Below, in pieces: positions 35 through 7,904 of a stretch of DNA of 64,000 bases. The position numbers were made by a program, and so were the translations under genes. Source of the DNA: Candidatus Hydrothermarchaeum profundi (lineage in GTDB: Archaea > Hydrothermarchaeota > Hydrothermarchaeia > Hydrothermarchaeales > Hydrothermarchaeaceae); assembly GCA_002011125.2 (NCBI GenBank), contig MTMF02000009.1, positions 124,001 through 188,000 on the forward strand. The letters run 5' to 3'. The stretch's first letter is position 1, and each line of letters begins with the position of its first letter. Below the pieces are notes generated by a model that was not told the origin of the DNA, searched no databases, and saw nothing but the letters and a program-made list of their open reading frames with translations.

Positions 35-1390
35 TTACATCTTGGGTCTTAACGTCAGTAGGTCTGTCACAGTTCTCAAGACTCCTATAAAGAACACTAT
101 CCCTATGCCTATGACGGCCTTGAACCAGAACTGCATCTGAGCTTGTGCTGTCATATATCCAAGTCCTAGCACTCTTTCAAGGTAAGTCTGTAAAATGCCC
201 GCTCCACTGAAAGCTAGTCCTATTCCAGTCATGCTGAATATCATTATCCAAAAGCCTAGTTTACCTCTACTATCATCGTAGATTCTGTATCCTTTAATCT
301 CCGGTATAGCGAAGTAGAAGAACATCAAATTAAACAAAGCATATGCCCCAAAGAAAGCCAAGTGCCCATGTGCTACCGTAACTTGGCTACCGTGAGTATA
401 GTAGTTAATCTGAGGTAAAGTATGCATGAAACCCCAAATACCTGCTCCAATGAAGTGGTATAAAGCTCCACCTCCCATGTAGGTCCAAGCTAGAGGGTTG
501 ACAAGCTCCATCTTCCTCTCTCTAGTCCACTTAAATACATCGATCACCATAAGCAGAATTGGCAAAGGCTCCAATGCGCTGAAGACTCCTCCAACATATA
601 GCCAGTACCGAGGGGCTCCAAGCCAATAGTAGTGATGACCCGTTCCTGCAATACCTGTAAATAAGAATAAACCGATCTCTATGTAGAGCCATTTTTCAAC
701 AACCTCTTTGTTAACTCCAGTCAACTTTATAAGCGCAAATGCCGTGAGTGATGCCACCACAAGCTCCCAAGCGCCTTCAACCCATAGATGGATTACCCAC
801 CACCAGTAGTACCAGTCTATGGTTTCATTTTCATAAACAGGTATCCCGAAGAGATACAGTAAGGAAAGGGTAATCAGTCCGGTTAATAGCATTGCCTGGG
901 TAACGGTCCAATGTTCGCCTTTTAAAATAGTCATCCCCACATTGAATAAGAAAATTAGTGCACCTACTACCACAAGTAAGTCTAGCCATCTAGGTATCTC
1001 AAGAAGAGGTCTACCCTGATTGAAATTGAACCAGGGATTATCAATGGTTATTCCCATGCCATTTATGAATATAGTTACTAATGCAGTTACGCCGACTAAT
1101 ACTAACGCTGCGAGTTGTATATACGCAAGCTTCTTACTATAGAGTTCTCTTTTCGATTCCTCTGGGATCATGTAGTATGTAGCACCCATAAAACCCAGAA
1201 GAGACCAGAGCACCAATAGATTAGTATGAAATGCTCTTGCGGTTGAGAATGGAAATACGTTCACTAGCCATTGAGGCAGAGTAAAGGCATAGTTTGTCGC
1301 TAGCCATAACCCCATTACCACTTGTAGAACGAACAATAATAAAGCGACAACAAAATAAGGATAGGCGATCTTTTGGCTTTCGTATTTCAT
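35..1390 (-). CDS. norB: Nitric oxide reductase large subunit (NorB, cNOR type)
   Basis: A 451-aa polytopic membrane protein of the heme-copper oxidase superfamily with about 12 hydrophobic segments, the usual NorB length. It would reduce 2 NO to N2O at a heme b3/FeB centre. Seen in the sequence: AFHTN (heme b ligand His), HLWVEGAWEL (FeB His plus the glutamate typical of NorB), GHHYYW (two FeB His) and VAHGHLAFFGAY (His-Gly-His for hemes b and b3). The Tyr-His crosslink motif of O2 reductases is absent. The ATG overlaps the norC stop (ATGA), so the two are translationally coupled. There is no N-terminal quinol-oxidising extension, so this is cNOR rather than qNOR. The role (respiration or detoxification) is inference. 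Confidence 0.93.
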   Translation of the reverse strand: MKYESQKIAYPYFVVALLLFVLQVVMGLWLATNYAFTLPQWLVNVFPFSTARAFHTNLLVLWSLLGFMGATYYMIPEESKRELYSKKLAYIQLAALVLVGVTALVTIFINGMGITIDNPWFNFNQGRPLLEIPRWLDLLVVVGALIFLFNVGMTILKGEHWTVTQAMLLTGLITLSLLYLFGIPVYENETIDWYYWWWVIHLWVEGAWELVVASLTAFALIKLTGVNKEVVEKWLYIEIGLFLFTGIAGTGHHYYWLGAPRYWLYVGGVFSALEPLPILLMVIDVFKWTRERKMELVNPLAWTYMGGGALYHFIGAGIWGFMHTLPQINYYTHGSQVTVAHGHLAFFGAYALFNLMFFYFAIPEIKGYRIYDDSRGKLGFWIMIFSMTGIGLAFSGAGILQTYLERVLGLGYMTAQAQMQFWFKAVIGIGIVFFIGVLRTVTDLLTLRPKM

Positions 1391-2085
1391 TTCCTACCCT
1401 CCTTTAAATTTGCAATATATTCAGCTATGGCTTCTGCCTCTTCTTCCGAGACTCTTTGTGCTGGCATAGTTGCATCGGGATTAATCGATCTTGGGTCAAG
1501 TATATAGTTCTTAATGTAATCTTTATCTCGCTTCACTTGCTCAAACTCTGGTCCCTGTAGTCCTCCTACACCTCCTAGAGAATGGCATGCTAAGCATCCA
1601 GCTTCCTTTATAAGAGCTGCTCCTTTGCTCATTCCTACTCCGGCTACAAGAATATTTACCCCTGGCTTATATTTTTGGTCTTGGGGTGGCCAATTATTGT
1701 TTTCAATCTCGCTTACCCATTTCAAAAAGGCTATTAGATTCTTCACCTCTTCCTCTGTTAGGTCATATTTCGGCATTTTTCTCATCGAGTTAGCAAAGAC
1801 CTTATCAGGACCTAAGACTCTAACTTTTATGCCCTCCGCTCCTAGTCTCCAATATGCTTTTGTCATGTCTGGAGCGTAATATCCTCCGAAACCAAGTATA
1901 GTATGGCAATCATTGCAGTTATACTTCTCCCATACAGCTTTTCCAGCAATGACTTGAGGAGTTAATTGGTCTGCGTGGGTTAATGCTGTAACTTGTCTAT
2001 GGGTATCTATAGTAAGACCTAAGAGTATCATTGCTGAAATCGAAGTTCCTATTATAAATATCCATTTAGCTGCTTTGAATTCCAT
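1387..2085 (-). CDS. norC: Nitric oxide reductase cytochrome c subunit (NorC) with an extra C-terminal heme domain
   Basis: A 232-aa, membrane-anchored c-type cytochrome that passes electrons to NorB. Residues about 7-27 form an N-terminal TM anchor. The first heme motif CNDCH, followed by GGYYAPDMTKAYW, is the canonical NorC domain. A second heme motif CLACH with a distal Met region (TMPAQR) follows in the last 85 residues. Ordinary NorC is about 150 aa with one heme, so this is a fusion to a second monoheme cytochrome c domain. The ATG at 2085 is chosen because GAAGGAGGGA lies five bases upstream; an in-frame start at 2103 lacks a site. First gene of the nor operon. Confidence 0.9.
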   Translation of the reverse strand: MEFKAAKWIFIIGTSISAMILLGLTIDTHRQVTALTHADQLTPQVIAGKAVWEKYNCNDCHTILGFGGYYAPDMTKAYWRLGAEGIKVRVLGPDKVFANSMRKMPKYDLTEEEVKNLIAFLKWVSEIENNNWPPQDQKYKPGVNILVAGVGMSKGAALIKEAGCLACHSLGGVGGLQGPEFEQVKRDKDYIKNYILDPRSINPDATMPAQRVSEEEAEAIAEYIANLKEGRK

Positions 2086-2235
2086 AATATCCCTCCTTCT
2101 CATTCATATGTAATTTCCTGAAATTTATGACTAAAATACATCTCTAATATAAAAAAATTACTACTATATATTAAATATTAATTATAATAAAAAGCTTTAT
2201 TTTATAGATATTTACTAAATATTCTTAAAGTTAAT

Positions 2236-3291
2236 CTACCAGTGAAAGCGGACATTAGATCTAACATTTCTTACCCCTCCCATCAAACCATCAACATGTT
2301 TAATTGTAGATGGCAATCCAGTCTTTTCAAAGAACTTTTCCCATCCAATTCTAGCAATCCAATCCCCAATTCTTTCGTCTCTACGAGCATCTTCCACCCA
2401 CGTATCGATTATATTCTTAACCGCAGTTACTACCTCAGGCCACTGCGGAGGATTATTTGGGATATATGGTATGACCATTTTTGCCCATGCAGGACCTGCA
2501 CCCGTATTTCCAGCCTTTCCGCCCACGACGATTGCTACTCCCGCAGTTTCAGGCCTCATAGTTAGTGCCTCGCAAGTCATGGTACAGTATGCACAGTATA
2601 TACATCTTTCAGGATTAATTTCTATGCTGTATTTGCCTTTTGGTCTAATTGCAGCCGTAGGACAAACTCTTATAGTGGTGGGTCTTTCACAAGCTTTGAC
2701 CTTTTCTTCATTTATAACAGGCGGCTCTCTATACACTCCAACAACACCTATGTTTGAAGTAGAACCCTCGCCACATTGGTTAATGCAACCTGAAACCGAG
2801 ATTTTGAGCTTAGCAGGATACACTTCATCGTCTGCAACAAATTCTCCATAAAGAGCATCGGAAATAGCCTTAGCGATACTTGGAGAATCAGCGGCTGCCA
2901 ATTGACAATGTAACCATCCAGTACAACAAGTGGTCTGATGAAATCTTCTTCCAGTACCACCTACTGGCAAACCTAATTCGTTGAGTTTAGTTATTAATTC
3001 GCTAATTTTTTCTTTTTCTACGCCCACGAACTCCACATGATTTCTAGTGGTAACCCTGAAATAACCCTCTGAATATTCATCCGCAAGATCGCATATTTTA
3101 TAAAGAGTAGAAGTACTCACTCTAGCATTTGTTGGCATTCCTACTCTAACAGTATAACACTCTTCTCCACCCTTAGATACATGCTTATACACTCCCGCCT
3201 TAACAAATTCATGACCAACCCACTTTCCATAGTTACGCATTATAATAGGGGGTAATACTTCCTCAAATGGAGGTATCCCTACACCGGGCAT
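2236..3291 (-). CDS. dsrB: Dissimilatory sulfite reductase beta subunit (DsrB)
   Basis: 351 aa. Partner of DsrA in the siroheme enzyme reducing sulfite (or working in reverse in sulfur oxidisers). Siroheme-[4Fe-4S] ligands: CTGWLHC (C-x5-C) and SGCINQCGE (C-x3-C). The inserted ferredoxin domain shows CIYCAYCTMTC preceded by VCPTAAIRP. The C-terminal Phe-His-Trp ending resembles other DsrB proteins. It starts two bases after dsrA, so it is the same transcript. Neither dsrC, dsrD nor the dsrMK membrane genes are in view. From memory, Desulfovibrio DsrB uses a CC-x3-C arrangement; here the first of those cysteines is Gly and an additional upstream Cys makes a C-x5-C pair. Confidence 0.95.
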   Translation of the reverse strand: MPGVGIPPFEEVLPPIIMRNYGKWVGHEFVKAGVYKHVSKGGEECYTVRVGMPTNARVSTSTLYKICDLADEYSEGYFRVTTRNHVEFVGVEKEKISELITKLNELGLPVGGTGRRFHQTTCCTGWLHCQLAAADSPSIAKAISDALYGEFVADDEVYPAKLKISVSGCINQCGEGSTSNIGVVGVYREPPVINEEKVKACERPTTIRVCPTAAIRPKGKYSIEINPERCIYCAYCTMTCEALTMRPETAGVAIVVGGKAGNTGAGPAWAKMVIPYIPNNPPQWPEVVTAVKNIIDTWVEDARRDERIGDWIARIGWEKFFEKTGLPSTIKHVDGLMGGVRNVRSNVRFHW

Positions 3292-3292
3292 A

Positions 3293-4435
3293 CTACATCA
3301 GCTCCTCTATCTTCCAATGATAAAAGAGGTTTTCTCTCGGAATAGTGAGTTCCCGTATATCAACTTCTACTCCAACCAATTTTATGAACTTGTCAAATCC
3401 AAATCTATGGAGAAACTCTCCCATACGTTCTTTAGGCATAGCATTCTCATCATAGACTTCTACAACTCTCTCTATAACATCCAAAATTTCCTTGAATTTA
3501 GGAGGAGAAGACTTAATGAACGGAACAAGGACCTTAGCCAATGTAGGGCCATATTTACTCCTGAACTTACCTCCAACCAGGATGGATGCCCCTCGATCTT
3601 CTCCAGGACTAATCGCAGGACACTGATTTATGCAATACATGCAATGAACACAGGCTTCTGAATCTATTGTAAGCTCATTTCCATCCCAACTCATAGCCCA
3701 GGTGGGGCACTTAGAGCAAATATAGTTAATGTCCCCGCCATTTTCAACCCAGCTCACTAATTTTTCCTGATCTACTAATGGCGCATCTCTAAAAGTTCCA
3801 CACACAAAGATCTCGCTTTTGTGGATTCCAAGCACACAATCATTTGGACAGCCCGCTGCTTTGGTTTTTATCTTATGAGGAAACCTAGGATACTGCATAT
3901 CATCTAACAAGTGCTTTGTGAATGCATTTCTAAATCCAATGGTATCGAACAACGCTACGTCACATCTCGCAGGACCAATACAAGCTTTAACCGTTCGAAG
4001 AGTGACATCCGTAGAGCCTACATCCAGACCAATTTTTTCCACTTCTTTTACGAGATCAGGAATCTTGTCATGCGGTACTTCGATAAGCTCTATATCGCTT
4101 GTAGTTGCAAATAGATGAATAAGGCTCCCACTATATTTTTCAGCGATTCTACATAGCTCTCGGCACATTTTCGTGGTGAAAAAAAGTCCTGGTGGAGGGA
4201 ATATGCGTACAACACTTGATTCCTTTATTATATCAGGTCTTTTGGATGCCCGGGCAATTATACCACTAGGTACTCCGAATATTGAAATGTACCCGCCTCC
4301 CCGCCACTGGCTAACTTTGTTCTGTAAGGCTTCTTCATACATCATTATAGAATACTGTGATTTCTTTAACTCCGATGCATGACTGGGCCATGGTCCTTTA
4401 CAAAGCTCGTCTACAAGAGGAGTATTTAATGTCAT
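3293..4435 (-). CDS. dsrA: Dissimilatory sulfite reductase alpha subunit (DsrA)
   Basis: 380 aa, somewhat shorter than the usual 400-440. Siroheme-cluster cysteines are present as CIGPARC (C-x5-C) and CPNDC (C-x3-C); the ferredoxin insert has CVHCMYCINQCP. It forms the alpha2beta2 enzyme with DsrB encoded immediately downstream. About 155 bases of AT-rich DNA upstream separate it from nrdG and should hold the dsr promoter. Whether the enzyme runs reductively or oxidatively cannot be decided from this window. Confidence 0.95.
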   Translation of the reverse strand: MTLNTPLVDELCKGPWPSHASELKKSQYSIMMYEEALQNKVSQWRGGGYISIFGVPSGIIARASKRPDIIKESSVVRIFPPPGLFFTTKMCRELCRIAEKYSGSLIHLFATTSDIELIEVPHDKIPDLVKEVEKIGLDVGSTDVTLRTVKACIGPARCDVALFDTIGFRNAFTKHLLDDMQYPRFPHKIKTKAAGCPNDCVLGIHKSEIFVCGTFRDAPLVDQEKLVSWVENGGDINYICSKCPTWAMSWDGNELTIDSEACVHCMYCINQCPAISPGEDRGASILVGGKFRSKYGPTLAKVLVPFIKSSPPKFKEILDVIERVVEVYDENAMPKERMGEFLHRFGFDKFIKLVGVEVDIRELTIPRENLFYHWKIEELM

Positions 4436-4590: not shown

Positions 4591-5292
4591 TTATTTACCT
4601 CTAAAAAAAGCCTTATCTACATTGCAACTGATGATCTTAACCAGCTTTTTCATATCATCATCGCTTAAAACTCTCGAATTCCTAAGGCCCCTGTCCATAG
4701 CAAATCTCGGCTGGAATTTCTGTAATACGTAAAGTTTAGCTCCTTTTATATCCCTCGAAATTTGCTCTATGTCCCTAAAAGTATGTAAAGACGGAACTAC
4801 AGTCGTCCTAAACTCGTACTCTACTCCACTATTCTTTATTAAATTTACACTCTCTCTAATCTTATCAACTTCGCATCGCACTCCACTGACTTCAGAATAC
4901 TGCTCTTCATTTAAGGGAGCTTTTATGTCCATAGCAATATAGTCCACAAGGTCTTTTTCCAAAAGCCTTCTAACAACTGTAGGGTTAGTGCCATTCGTAT
5001 CGAGTTTTATCTTTATCCCCAGCTTCTTCACTCTCTCGCAAAACTTATCTAGTCCTTTTTGTAATGTTGGCTCACCGCCTGTAATACAAACTCCATCTAT
5101 AAAGTCATTATGCTTAGTGAGAAAATCAAAAATTTCCTCTTCTTTAACATCTTCATACTGCTCAGGGTTAAGAACTAACCCATGATTATGGCAAAAAGGA
5201 CATCGTAGGTTACATCCCGGAGTAAAGACTGTGCATGCTACCTTTCCATCCCAATCTAGGAAAGTTGTATCGATAAATCCTTTAATTTGCAT
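4591..5292 (-). CDS. nrdG: Anaerobic ribonucleotide reductase activating protein (NrdG, radical SAM)
   Basis: 233 aa. Radical SAM enzyme that installs the glycyl radical on NrdD. The cluster motif CNLRCPFC (C-x3-C-x2-C) lies at about residue 27, followed by CITGGEPTLQ, the SAM-binding GGE motif. The length fits the archaeal pyruvate-formate-lyase-activase-like branch. It overlaps the upstream thioredoxin-like gene by 37 bases and is the last cistron of the class III reductase cluster. Confidence 0.9.
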   Translation of the reverse strand: MQIKGFIDTTFLDWDGKVACTVFTPGCNLRCPFCHNHGLVLNPEQYEDVKEEEIFDFLTKHNDFIDGVCITGGEPTLQKGLDKFCERVKKLGIKIKLDTNGTNPTVVRRLLEKDLVDYIAMDIKAPLNEEQYSEVSGVRCEVDKIRESVNLIKNSGVEYEFRTTVVPSLHTFRDIEQISRDIKGAKLYVLQKFQPRFAMDRGLRNSRVLSDDDMKKLVKIISCNVDKAFFRGK

Positions 5293-5528
5293 ATCTCATT
5301 CCTGTCCGGTATCTCTCCTCTCCAAGAGCGAAGCTCATTATCATCATCATCAACTATAATTGTAGTAGGAGTTGAAAGCACGCTATAAAATGCTGCTTCT
5401 GCCATTCCATCCACGTCTTCAATGTTAAAGTACTCAACCGCGATTCCATCTTTCTCTAAACTTTTACAGATTTCTTTCGTAGGGGGACATTTAGAGCAAT
5501 TTTCTTGCCAGAATAGCTTGACTTTCAT
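5256..5528 (-). CDS. Thioredoxin/glutaredoxin-like protein of the class III RNR cluster
   Basis: 90 aa, a single thioredoxin fold: beta strand KVKLFWQ, redox motif CSKCPPTKEIC (C-x2-C), and a cis-proline segment LSTPTTIIVD. A GGAGGT site lies upstream of the ATG. Located between the NrdD glycyl-radical tail gene and nrdG, it probably supplies reducing equivalents to NrdD, whose class III relatives use either formate or a thioredoxin/NrdH-type donor. The donor role is inference. Confidence 0.8.
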   Translation of the reverse strand: MKVKLFWQENCSKCPPTKEICKSLEKDGIAVEYFNIEDVDGMAEAAFYSVLSTPTTIIVDDDDNELRSWRGEIPDRNEICKLKDLSIQLS

Positions 5529-5590: not shown

Positions 5591-5740
5591 TTAGTTGGCG
5601 AAATGCCATCTATCCCTCGCCATCCGGTCCCTCAGTTCTCCTATTTTTCCCTTATTCCAACCTTCTACTTTTGAGAAAAACCCTGTCACTCTCGTGATGT
5701 GTTCTACGTTTTCTGAGCCACAGCATGGACATCTATCCAT
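5591..5740 (-). CDS. Free-standing glycyl-radical C-terminal domain of class III RNR (split NrdD, tail)
   Basis: 49 aa. It begins MDRCPCCGSENV (second zinc Cys pair, C-x2-C within CPCC) and carries RVTGFFS, the glycyl-radical loop found at the C-terminus of NrdD, followed by the typical WNKGK segment. The catalytic body ends 17 bases upstream just after the first zinc pair. Its own ribosome binding site AGGAGGTG (5747-5754) lies six bases before the ATG, between the body's stop codon and this start. This favours a genuine split gene over a sequencing error. The frame is also open upstream, so a +1 frameshift fusion remains possible. The Zn site and active enzyme would have to assemble from two polypeptides. 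Confidence 0.85.
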   Translation of the reverse strand: MDRCPCCGSENVEHITRVTGFFSKVEGWNKGKIGELRDRMARDRWHFAN

Positions 5741-5756
5741 CTTTTTCACCTCCTTT

Positions 5757-7688
5757 TTATAGTCCTCTTGTTGTACGCCCACAATCCAGGCAGCTTGTAA
5801 ACTCGGGGCTAAATGCGATTTGATCGTTTTGAGTATTTTTGAATGTTTTAACTACAAAACTCGCTATTCCGCCTGGATCAGGCCTCGCTTCACCAATCCA
5901 TATATGGGAGAGCGATCCTGCTTCTATTAATGGGTGAAACATTCCTTCTTTTTTAACTCTCTCAATCGGGCTTAGAGGCACTCCAACGTTAAGATAAGTC
6001 GAATTAGTATAATAAATTTCATTTTTTTCAACAATCCCTTTAACTACCGTAAGCGCTTCGTCTCTGTAATGCTCCAAATCTAGTTTGGCCATTCTATAAG
6101 CAGTACTTTCCGCGGGAGTTTGCTCTAGAACAAATCTAAGTCCATATTTCTCCCCAAGTCTTTCTGCCTCTTTTTTCATGAAAGCAATCACTCTTAGACC
6201 AAATTTCAAGGCTTGATTTGACTCATGCATCTCCTCTCCAGTATGGTATTGTACGAGCTCGTTTAAACCCACCATCCCAAAGAGGAAAGTTGCTCTGTGC
6301 AATCTATAATATGGTTCTCCATCTCTATTCATAGAGAGCAAGCTTAGGGGGCCCTGATTTTTCATGTCCAATAATTTCTTAATAAAGTTCCTCTTGTAGA
6401 CATGTGCTCTAGCCATAAGCTCCATTCTTTCAGTTATTATCTCGAAGAGCCTCTCATCACTTCCGCCCGCTTCATACGCCACTCTCGGGAGGTTGAGGGT
6501 TACATTTTGCATGGCTGAATAGCGCATCTTCCATGGAGTTTTTGCATCCTCAAAATCTGATTTCTCAAGCTTAAAGGAAAGCCGGCAGCACTCACTTATC
6601 TTTGCTGTTTCACCCCGGTCGAATACGTAATAAGTGTTACCTTTATCAGAAGAAACATCAGAGATTAGGTAAAGGAAATCCTCGTATCCTTCCGTTTTGA
6701 ATAATCTCTCTGTTATGTGTACCTGAGGTTTGGGGAAAAAGAAGGGTCTTCCAAGGCCATCACCTTCTTTGTATACTTTGAAAAGCGCTATAGCAAATTT
6801 CTGAGATTCTTCGATATAATCCTCATAGTTATTCCCCGTAAATTTTCCTCCAGGACCTATAGCAGGAACTCCAATAAAGTGTTTTGGTATTTCCCAATAT
6901 ATATTCAAATCAGAGAATATAGACTGCCCCCCACGAGCCACGCTTTGCTGAGCAAACTCAAAGATAAGCATCTGTGCTAACTGTTCTAGTTTCTCATTAT
7001 CCACTCCTACAAGATAAGGTGCAAAAAATAGGTTTACTGCGTCCCATCCGATAGCTCCCGCAAAATTGCCTTGAAGTGCTGCAGAAAACTTTATCATTTG
7101 CCCTATTAGAACTTCAGGATGTTTAGCTGGCTTTGATATAGATATTGCGTTAGGGAGGCTTAAACCAAACTTTTTTACATATTCTAGCGAGTTTCCAGAA
7201 CAGTATGGCCTATCTATCATTCCTAAATCATGTAAATGGAAATCCCCTTTCTCATGAGCTACAGCAATTTCTGGAGGAAATATTTTTAAAAGTGCATATT
7301 GCTTCTTTATTGACTCTGCCAAGGTTAGATTCGTAGCTTCAGGGCCATGAGGTACATTGGCGTTTTCTCTATTTCGTGATATAAGCATTTGATCTACATC
7401 ATATATTGGTAACCCTAACCGGGTATGCTGTTTTCTCTCCTCTTCCAATCCATATTCTATGAGTTTCCCATTTACAACTTCACGTATTAGAGGAGCCGTG
7501 ATAAACTTTATCTTAGATTTAATTATGGTTTCTTCGACTTCCTTACTTATTTTTTCAGCAAGTTCGGGGGATATGGTGGTTTCTCTAAGAAGTGCTTCCA
7601 CTATACTTTTTCTGTCCCATTTAACTACATCCTCTCTTGAAACCTTAACAAAGAGGGCAGCATCGGTTGAATCGTTTGAAACTATCAT
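5757..7688 (-). CDS. nrdD: Anaerobic class III ribonucleoside-triphosphate reductase, catalytic body (split NrdD)
   Basis: 643 aa. Reduces NTPs to dNTPs by glycyl-radical chemistry. An ATP-cone-like region (VSREDVVKWDRKSIVEALL) occupies residues about 10-85; then HLHDLG, the ten-stranded barrel with SECCRLSF (active-site Cys region) and QNVTLNLPRVAYEAGG. It stops at CLDCGRTTRGL, directly after the first zinc Cys pair. The second pair and radical Gly are in the next gene. ATG at 7688 is used; a GTG at 7697 is possible. First gene of the nrdD-tail-thioredoxin-nrdG cluster. Confidence 0.92.
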   Translation of the reverse strand: MIVSNDSTDAALFVKVSREDVVKWDRKSIVEALLRETTISPELAEKISKEVEETIIKSKIKFITAPLIREVVNGKLIEYGLEEERKQHTRLGLPIYDVDQMLISRNRENANVPHGPEATNLTLAESIKKQYALLKIFPPEIAVAHEKGDFHLHDLGMIDRPYCSGNSLEYVKKFGLSLPNAISISKPAKHPEVLIGQMIKFSAALQGNFAGAIGWDAVNLFFAPYLVGVDNEKLEQLAQMLIFEFAQQSVARGGQSIFSDLNIYWEIPKHFIGVPAIGPGGKFTGNNYEDYIEESQKFAIALFKVYKEGDGLGRPFFFPKPQVHITERLFKTEGYEDFLYLISDVSSDKGNTYYVFDRGETAKISECCRLSFKLEKSDFEDAKTPWKMRYSAMQNVTLNLPRVAYEAGGSDERLFEIITERMELMARAHVYKRNFIKKLLDMKNQGPLSLLSMNRDGEPYYRLHRATFLFGMVGLNELVQYHTGEEMHESNQALKFGLRVIAFMKKEAERLGEKYGLRFVLEQTPAESTAYRMAKLDLEHYRDEALTVVKGIVEKNEIYYTNSTYLNVGVPLSPIERVKKEGMFHPLIEAGSLSHIWIGEARPDPGGIASFVVKTFKNTQNDQIAFSPEFTSCLDCGRTTRGL

Positions 7689-7904
7689 TCCAATCACTTC
7701 GGTATTCTAACAAAATATCATTTATGTGTTAATGTAATAAACAAATTTTGATTATATAAGCTTTTCTATGTGATGATGTTAACATATTACTGCATATTTA
7801 TTTATAAAATTAACTAAATTTCCTTGGAAGTAAAATACTATTTTTAAAAATAGTTTGAAAGTCTAACATATGAGCTACCCAAAAACACATTTAATAAAAA
7901 ATTT

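Follow-up and report, generated by a model that had tools for sequence, protein, structure and literature searches.

Unsplit NrdD, the catalytic subunit of class III ribonucleotide reductase (RNR), an oxygen-sensitive enzyme that produces the building blocks of DNA, has been described from T4, T. maritima and P. copri. Its zinc site lies after the final strand of the barrel and ahead of the glycyl loop, with ligands arranged as CxxC-x14-CxxC in T4 and E. coli and as CxxxH-x6-CxxC in T. maritima (PMC4493059). The radical domain of the P. copri enzyme shows strong dynamics and should shift mostly as one rigid unit (PMC11226230), a behavior compatible with detachability. Here, in a window of 64,000 nucleotides (nt; the whole stretch of DNA that was analyzed) from Candidatus Hydrothermarchaeum profundi, we describe an nrdD locus whose products appear to share with these enzymes the fold, the catalytic cysteines, the radical glycine, the four putative zinc ligands and the NrdG activase, but whose C-terminal domain is interrupted between the zinc cysteine pairs and produced as a separate protein of 49 amino acids (aa). 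The split, which recurs in a group of deep-branching archaea, is both real and conserved, and the predicted two-chain enzyme is a new variant of class III RNR. Searches of the open-access literature found no account of an NrdD glycyl-radical domain detached from its body, archaeal or viral, which is weak evidence of novelty; an initial annotation of this DNA, made from its letters alone, knew of no zinc-split NrdD.

Small autonomous radical-glycine proteins that complete a glycyl radical enzyme in trans, as the window peptide would, are represented by YfiD/GrcA and Y06I (PMC8683613). These belong to the pyruvate formate-lyase family and provide a backup for an intact enzyme in the event of cleavage by oxygen, whereas the window peptide belongs to the NrdD family and is the only copy for its enzyme; the YfiD-type coexistence with an intact, active enzyme copy is not found, as the adjacent body lacks the domain and the paralogue, a second NrdD, lacks the thiyl cysteine. 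Spare-part proteins have been validated only for pyruvate formate-lyase, with the possibility raised for other glycyl radical enzymes (PMC8683613). The split class II RNR NrdJa/NrdJb (PMC9669993) also consists of two chains with the zinc-finger region on the smaller one, but it is adenosylcobalamin-dependent, and its cut keeps the zinc domain entire on a single chain, unlike the window split. Phage nrdD genes also occur in pieces, which have been attributed to introns, inteins/endonucleases or unexplained fragmentation (PMC3653736), while the window locus differs by its 16-nt ribosome-binding junction at a domain loop.

The elements of the split locus, in window coordinates, are as follows:

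5757..7688, minus strand: NrdD body (class III RNR catalytic subunit without its glycyl-radical domain), 643 aa from the ATG at 7688.
7200..7202, minus strand: codon of Cys163 (RPYCSGN), the conserved strand-A cysteine, from alignments that included T4 NrdD.
6585..6587, minus strand: codon of Cys368, the second cysteine of the finger-loop SECCRL (thioredoxin-type, no Met), from alignment.
5781..5792, minus strand: first zinc knuckle, CLDC, at the body C-terminus, unchanged in every split body whose 3' end is intact (15).
5741..5756, minus strand: junction from stop to start, AAAGGAGGTGAAAAAG, 16 nt.
5591..5740, minus strand: glycyl-radical-domain peptide, 49 aa, ATG at 5740, covering positions 522-560 of 562 in Pfam NRDD, with 14 homologous detached peptides.
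5720..5731, minus strand: second zinc knuckle, CPCC, of the peptide, with C4, P5 and C7 invariant.
5681..5692, minus strand: RVTG; its radical glycine, Gly20 in the peptide, corresponds to that in RITG of solved NrdDs.

The body, for which an alternative GTG start at 7697 would give 646 aa, terminates in TSCLDCGRTTRGL (CLDCGRTTRGL) followed by TAA at 5759..5757. The Shine-Dalgarno sequence GGAGGTGA occupies 5753..5746 within the junction, 5 nt ahead of the peptide ATG, and AGGAGGTGA precedes the start of the peptide, whose sequence MDRCPCCGSENVEHITRVTGFFSKVEGWNKGKIGELRDRMARDRWHFAN (MDRCPCCGS...RVTGFFS) lies in frame +1 with respect to the body. The initial annotation had reported this body ending, the separate RVTGFFS frame and the ribosome-binding site between them, all of which were confirmed on the minus strand. 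Both products match the NrdD family: the body covers positions 1-517 of the 562-position Pfam NRDD profile (411 bits) and also matches NCBIfam TIGR02487, above cut-off, and the peptide covers positions 522-560 (40.7 bits, E 1.6e-10), such that the two tile the profile with only ~4 loop positions of the family length absent. These matches, together with a conserved peptide at the same break in 14 other genomes, lie far outside what chance would produce. The body retains the motifs HxHD, NxN, SECCR and TPAE (TPAES, glutamate retained). A barrel with strand-A and finger-loop cysteines, an R(V/I)TG loop (here on the separate peptide) and NrdG in the operon are all present, as expected of class III RNR, but the catalytic subunit is encoded by two open reading frames (ORFs) in 15 genomes rather than as one polypeptide, and therefore we class it as a variant and not as an ordinary NrdD.

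The same-loop break was found in 14 of the 23 genomes examined from the window's phylum (the window genome included) and in one from outside; the body of G044, outside the phylum, is 82% identical to that of the window. Fifteen other genomes hold the closest relatives of the body (72-82% identity), and all 14 whose 3' end is present are broken at the same place, the fifteenth (L019) having lost its 3' end to a contig end. The search that the initial annotation had proposed, for an NrdD without its C-terminal domain beside an RVTG peptide, thus succeeded in 14 other genomes; several of the split relatives are Hydrothermarchaeota, including Ca. Pyrohabitans JdFR-17, and one is archaeon BMS3Abin16. 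Elsewhere in the phylum of the window, small frames with the radical domain are confined to the split genomes, and nearly all other named relatives are unsplit (80 examined, 3 of them with no motif match).

Among the split genomes, the peptide lies in frame 0, +1 or +2 relative to the body, and the gap from stop to peptide is ~12-20 nt in most and 125 and 226 nt in two, where an ORF of 41 or 77 aa stands between the halves (the 77-aa ORF, in L006, gave no Pfam or NCBIfam match). Ahead of the peptide start lies GGAGGTGA, with the variants GGAGGT or GGGGTGA in three genomes, and the apparent GTG start in L009 has the same Shine-Dalgarno site ahead of it. Comparison of seven peptide pairs gave a proportion of synonymous differences (pS) of 0.34-0.95 against a proportion of nonsynonymous differences (pN) of 0.01-0.08 in six, the seventh pair being nearly identical, which indicates purifying selection on the peptide. 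Invariant positions number 24, including both cysteines and RVTG. These comparisons strongly support two separately translated polypeptides, broken between the zinc cysteine pairs and kept by selection in 15 genomes. A split of nrdD by a mobile element is not indicated: the junctions measure ~12-20 nt in most genomes, and no intron, intein or endonuclease was found at the break.

In the phylogeny, the split bodies form one clade (support 87/79; 92% of bootstrap trees) that branches from within the unsplit NrdDs of archaea and bacteria, pointing to a single origin of the split in this clade. The Bathyarchaeota-titled unsplit sister, L035, may be an early branch or a re-fusion, the exact rooting being uncertain at a support of 87/79.

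By comparison with the solved enzymes, the cut falls inside the zinc ribbon and places one knuckle on the body and the other on the peptide. C-x2-C is found in all bodies with an intact 3' end and C-P-x-C in all peptides of the 15 split genomes, and the unsplit relatives carry the same four cysteines on one chain. The loop between the two cysteine pairs is exactly 10 residues long in 85 of 86 unsplit NrdDs and is 7+3 in the window; the lone exception, the nearest unsplit relative of the split clade (L035, 2979-5150), has a 17-residue loop exactly at the split site. A zinc ion shared between the chains is the simplest reading of this pattern and a probable one. The initial annotation had proposed two polypeptides joined by an inter-chain zinc: the former stands on 15 genomes and on selection, and the kept cysteine pairs and the 7+3 loop argue for the latter by comparison. 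In the Rad50 zinc hook, a homodimer, a CxxC of each of the two chains shares one zinc. This protein (PMC5093744) is unrelated to NrdD, and the analogy is one of mechanism only.

Two genes of the operon follow the peptide in this order:

5256..5528, minus strand: thioredoxin/glutaredoxin-like protein, 90 aa, with CSKC (Pfam Thioredoxin_3, E 6.9e-8).
4591..5292, minus strand: NrdG radical-SAM (S-adenosylmethionine) activase, 233 aa (NCBIfam TIGR02495 NrdG2, 215.9 bits, above cut-off).

In many unsplit relatives, too, the redoxin gene is directly 3' of nrdD, and NrdG is adjacent there as well. The thioredoxin-dependent NrdD subtype is marked by a double-cysteine finger loop without Met and by an active-site Glu (PMC9669993), and by these criteria the window NrdD (SECCR, TPAES) is of the thioredoxin-dependent type. 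In 10 split genomes the peptide is fused to the operon redoxin, so that the radical domain has shifted from the catalytic chain to that of the reductant.

A two-chain enzyme is very likely on this evidence, and we place the full explanation, a working class III RNR of two gene products with shared-zinc docking, NrdG activation and redoxin reduction, at a probability of about 0.82. The body would supply the allosteric part and the catalytic barrel, along with both the thiyl cysteine and that of strand A, and the 49-aa peptide would supply the radical glycine, docking by completing a Cys4 zinc ribbon from CLDC of the body tail and its own CPCC while its RVTG loop threads into the body barrel. 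NrdG from the operon would then generate the glycyl radical on the peptide, the finger-loop cysteine would receive the radical in turn, and the operon redoxin would reduce the disulfide that turnover leaves behind. While the two translation units, their conservation, the motifs and the operon come from sequence comparison, the docking, the shared zinc and the activity are what we infer. If true, this would be an RNR with one zinc shared between its subunits, and the window peptide a minimal peptide for studying the glycyl radical.

Structure models of two relatives, in which the stop was read as Gln solely to obtain one chain, suggest a normal class III fold (predicted local distance difference test [pLDDT] scores of 83.5 and 82.5, junction residues under 50), and comparison of a read-through model with P. 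copri NrdD gave a VIA Z of 33 and a root-mean-square deviation of 3.0 for 540 residues, over residues 23-696. Two considerations nonetheless weigh against the two-chain enzyme as proposed. Such single-chain models, informed by unsplit homologues, could hardly show anything other than docking and represent anatomy rather than proof. A class II RNR, moreover, is encoded in the window genome and in most relatives, so that the split enzyme is usually not the sole source of deoxynucleoside triphosphates; the 90%-complete genome G010, which has the split enzyme, yielded no RNR of class I or II.

Detached radical domains were also found beyond this clade, which, like the peptide-redoxin fusion, the initial annotation had not foreseen. 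In the phylum of G050, 23 of 147 genomes, spanning six families (f43, f50, f53, f60, f61 and f62) that are presumably Methanomicrobiales, carry the radical domain on a Cys-rich protein of the 120-aa class with its own CxxC pairs. These methanogen-like detached domains (L130-L139, L143 and L144, in genomes G107, G098, G168, G215 and others) are unlinked to a body: in all 12 genomes checked, the NrdD body, searched for with phmmer, stops before the zinc site (profile end 510-516), and the radical domain is on another contig or ~89 kb and more away. The cut site is different and the body finger loop reads QCCA, and therefore the radical domain was most likely detached independently at least twice in archaea. 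Six further genomes, including those with L134, L145 (G116, G142), L140 and L141 (G212, G240), hold a free-standing radical domain plus an unsplit NrdD, and by analogy this extra domain is a candidate class III RNR spare part, a better YfiD analogue than the window peptide. In the phylum of G043 (36 genomes), no convincing detached radical domain was found; G072 has one 201-aa frame with the domain, and a contig end is 482 bases away.

Scans of viral contigs revealed ~30 loci with a free-standing NrdD radical domain, and 22 of the 26 viral records searched whole held no recognizable NrdD body, although the records may be incomplete. A tailed-virus contig, IMGVR_UViG_3300032046_000050 (L176/L285), encodes a 53-aa window-type peptide, 69% identical to that of the window and with one CxxC, and no NrdD body was found on that record. 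It stands among head-tail genes, with a major head protein close by and portal- and terminase-like large ORFs further along, and it presumably works with a host body. Many other viral radical domains are without any zinc cysteines; among viral loci, L181-L185, L189, L198, L207, L217, L241 and L298 encode ~100-120 aa proteins with an unfamiliar N-terminal region and a C-terminal radical domain, again without zinc cysteines. In L188 a single open frame joins the radical domain to a long C-terminal part resembling a DNA polymerase, and L287 (IMGVR_UViG_3300004241_000001) is a viral NrdD that is unsplit and continues past its radical domain into a fused glutaredoxin-like domain.

Whether the peptide is ever exchanged separates the two-chain enzyme from its strongest rival, a tight permanent two-chain complex in which the split is neutral. 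One origin, stable inheritance and an operon position beside the body would fit co-translational assembly of such a complex, in which a 10-residue loop is merely interrupted, and we give it nearly even odds. Against permanence stand the viral peptide without a body, the movement of the peptide onto the redoxin in 10 genomes, the ORFs between the halves in two and the unlinked methanogen-like domains. Cleavage at the glycine destroys glycyl radical enzymes. More speculatively, then, the peptide of the proposed two-chain enzyme might be swapped, for example after such oxidative cleavage or for a viral copy. The exchange that the initial annotation had likened to YfiD does not hold as a spare part beside an intact enzyme, the peptide being the only copy of the domain for its enzyme, yet the body-less viral peptide, the best hint of an exchangeable subunit, makes exchange as such plausible; that it occurs physiologically we suggest only tentatively, at clearly less than an even chance. 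A wider proposal, somewhat short of an even chance, is that the glycyl-radical domain serves as a mobile radical cofactor protein open to exchange, that archaea have detached it at least twice (once through the zinc site, with the metal bridging the chains), and that viruses, carrying nothing but this piece, plug it into a host body during infection. A radical glycine on a replaceable 5-kDa subunit would make repair by exchange testable for an enzyme of DNA precursors, and such modularity may well be general, to judge from the free-standing domains of viruses and methanogen-like genomes.

Alternatively, the zinc site might be lost and the C-terminal CxxC of the body might serve, like that of class I and II RNRs, as a redox-active tail. 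The body does end soon after its CxxC, and the viral detached domains without zinc cysteines imply that zinc is dispensable for some of them. This reading is unlikely, however, given a peptide CPxC that is invariant in 15 of 15 split genomes, a total loop length preserved in the window, the four cysteines that unsplit relatives carry in one chain, and an operon redoxin that already serves reduction.

It is very improbable that the peptide is a spare part for the second, unsplit-length NrdD of the genome. The radical domain of that protein is indeed truncated or degenerate (NKIGYSS...), or absent in relatives, but FTQYYRW replaces its finger-loop cysteines in the window genome; without the thiyl cysteine, it is therefore not an enzyme for which the peptide could be a spare. 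It is also encoded at an unlinked position, while the peptide accompanies the split body. In its orthologues from the window's order (L114-L121, L123-L127), the finger-loop motif is gone and the radical domain mostly lost, and the paralogue looks like a conserved pseudoenzyme. In several genomes of the order, the second NrdD is followed by a radical-SAM-like protein.

Production of a single chain by stop read-through or programmed frameshifting has still less to commend it: three genomes do have the peptide in the frame of the body, separated by a single stop codon, but elsewhere the frames are +1 and +2, the spacing ranges over ~12-226 nt, a Shine-Dalgarno sequence lies ahead of the peptide and ORFs intervene in two genomes. 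An assembly error or a decaying gene in the window genome is the least credible of all, with nothing found in its favor, since the break is common to 15 genomes and under purifying selection, and the indel confined to this assembly that the initial annotation had named as fatal to its reading is contradicted by the 14 other genomes.

Downstream of the operon, at 35-4435 on the minus strand of the window, ORFs judged by eye resemble a nitric oxide reductase pair and dissimilatory sulfite reductase subunits.
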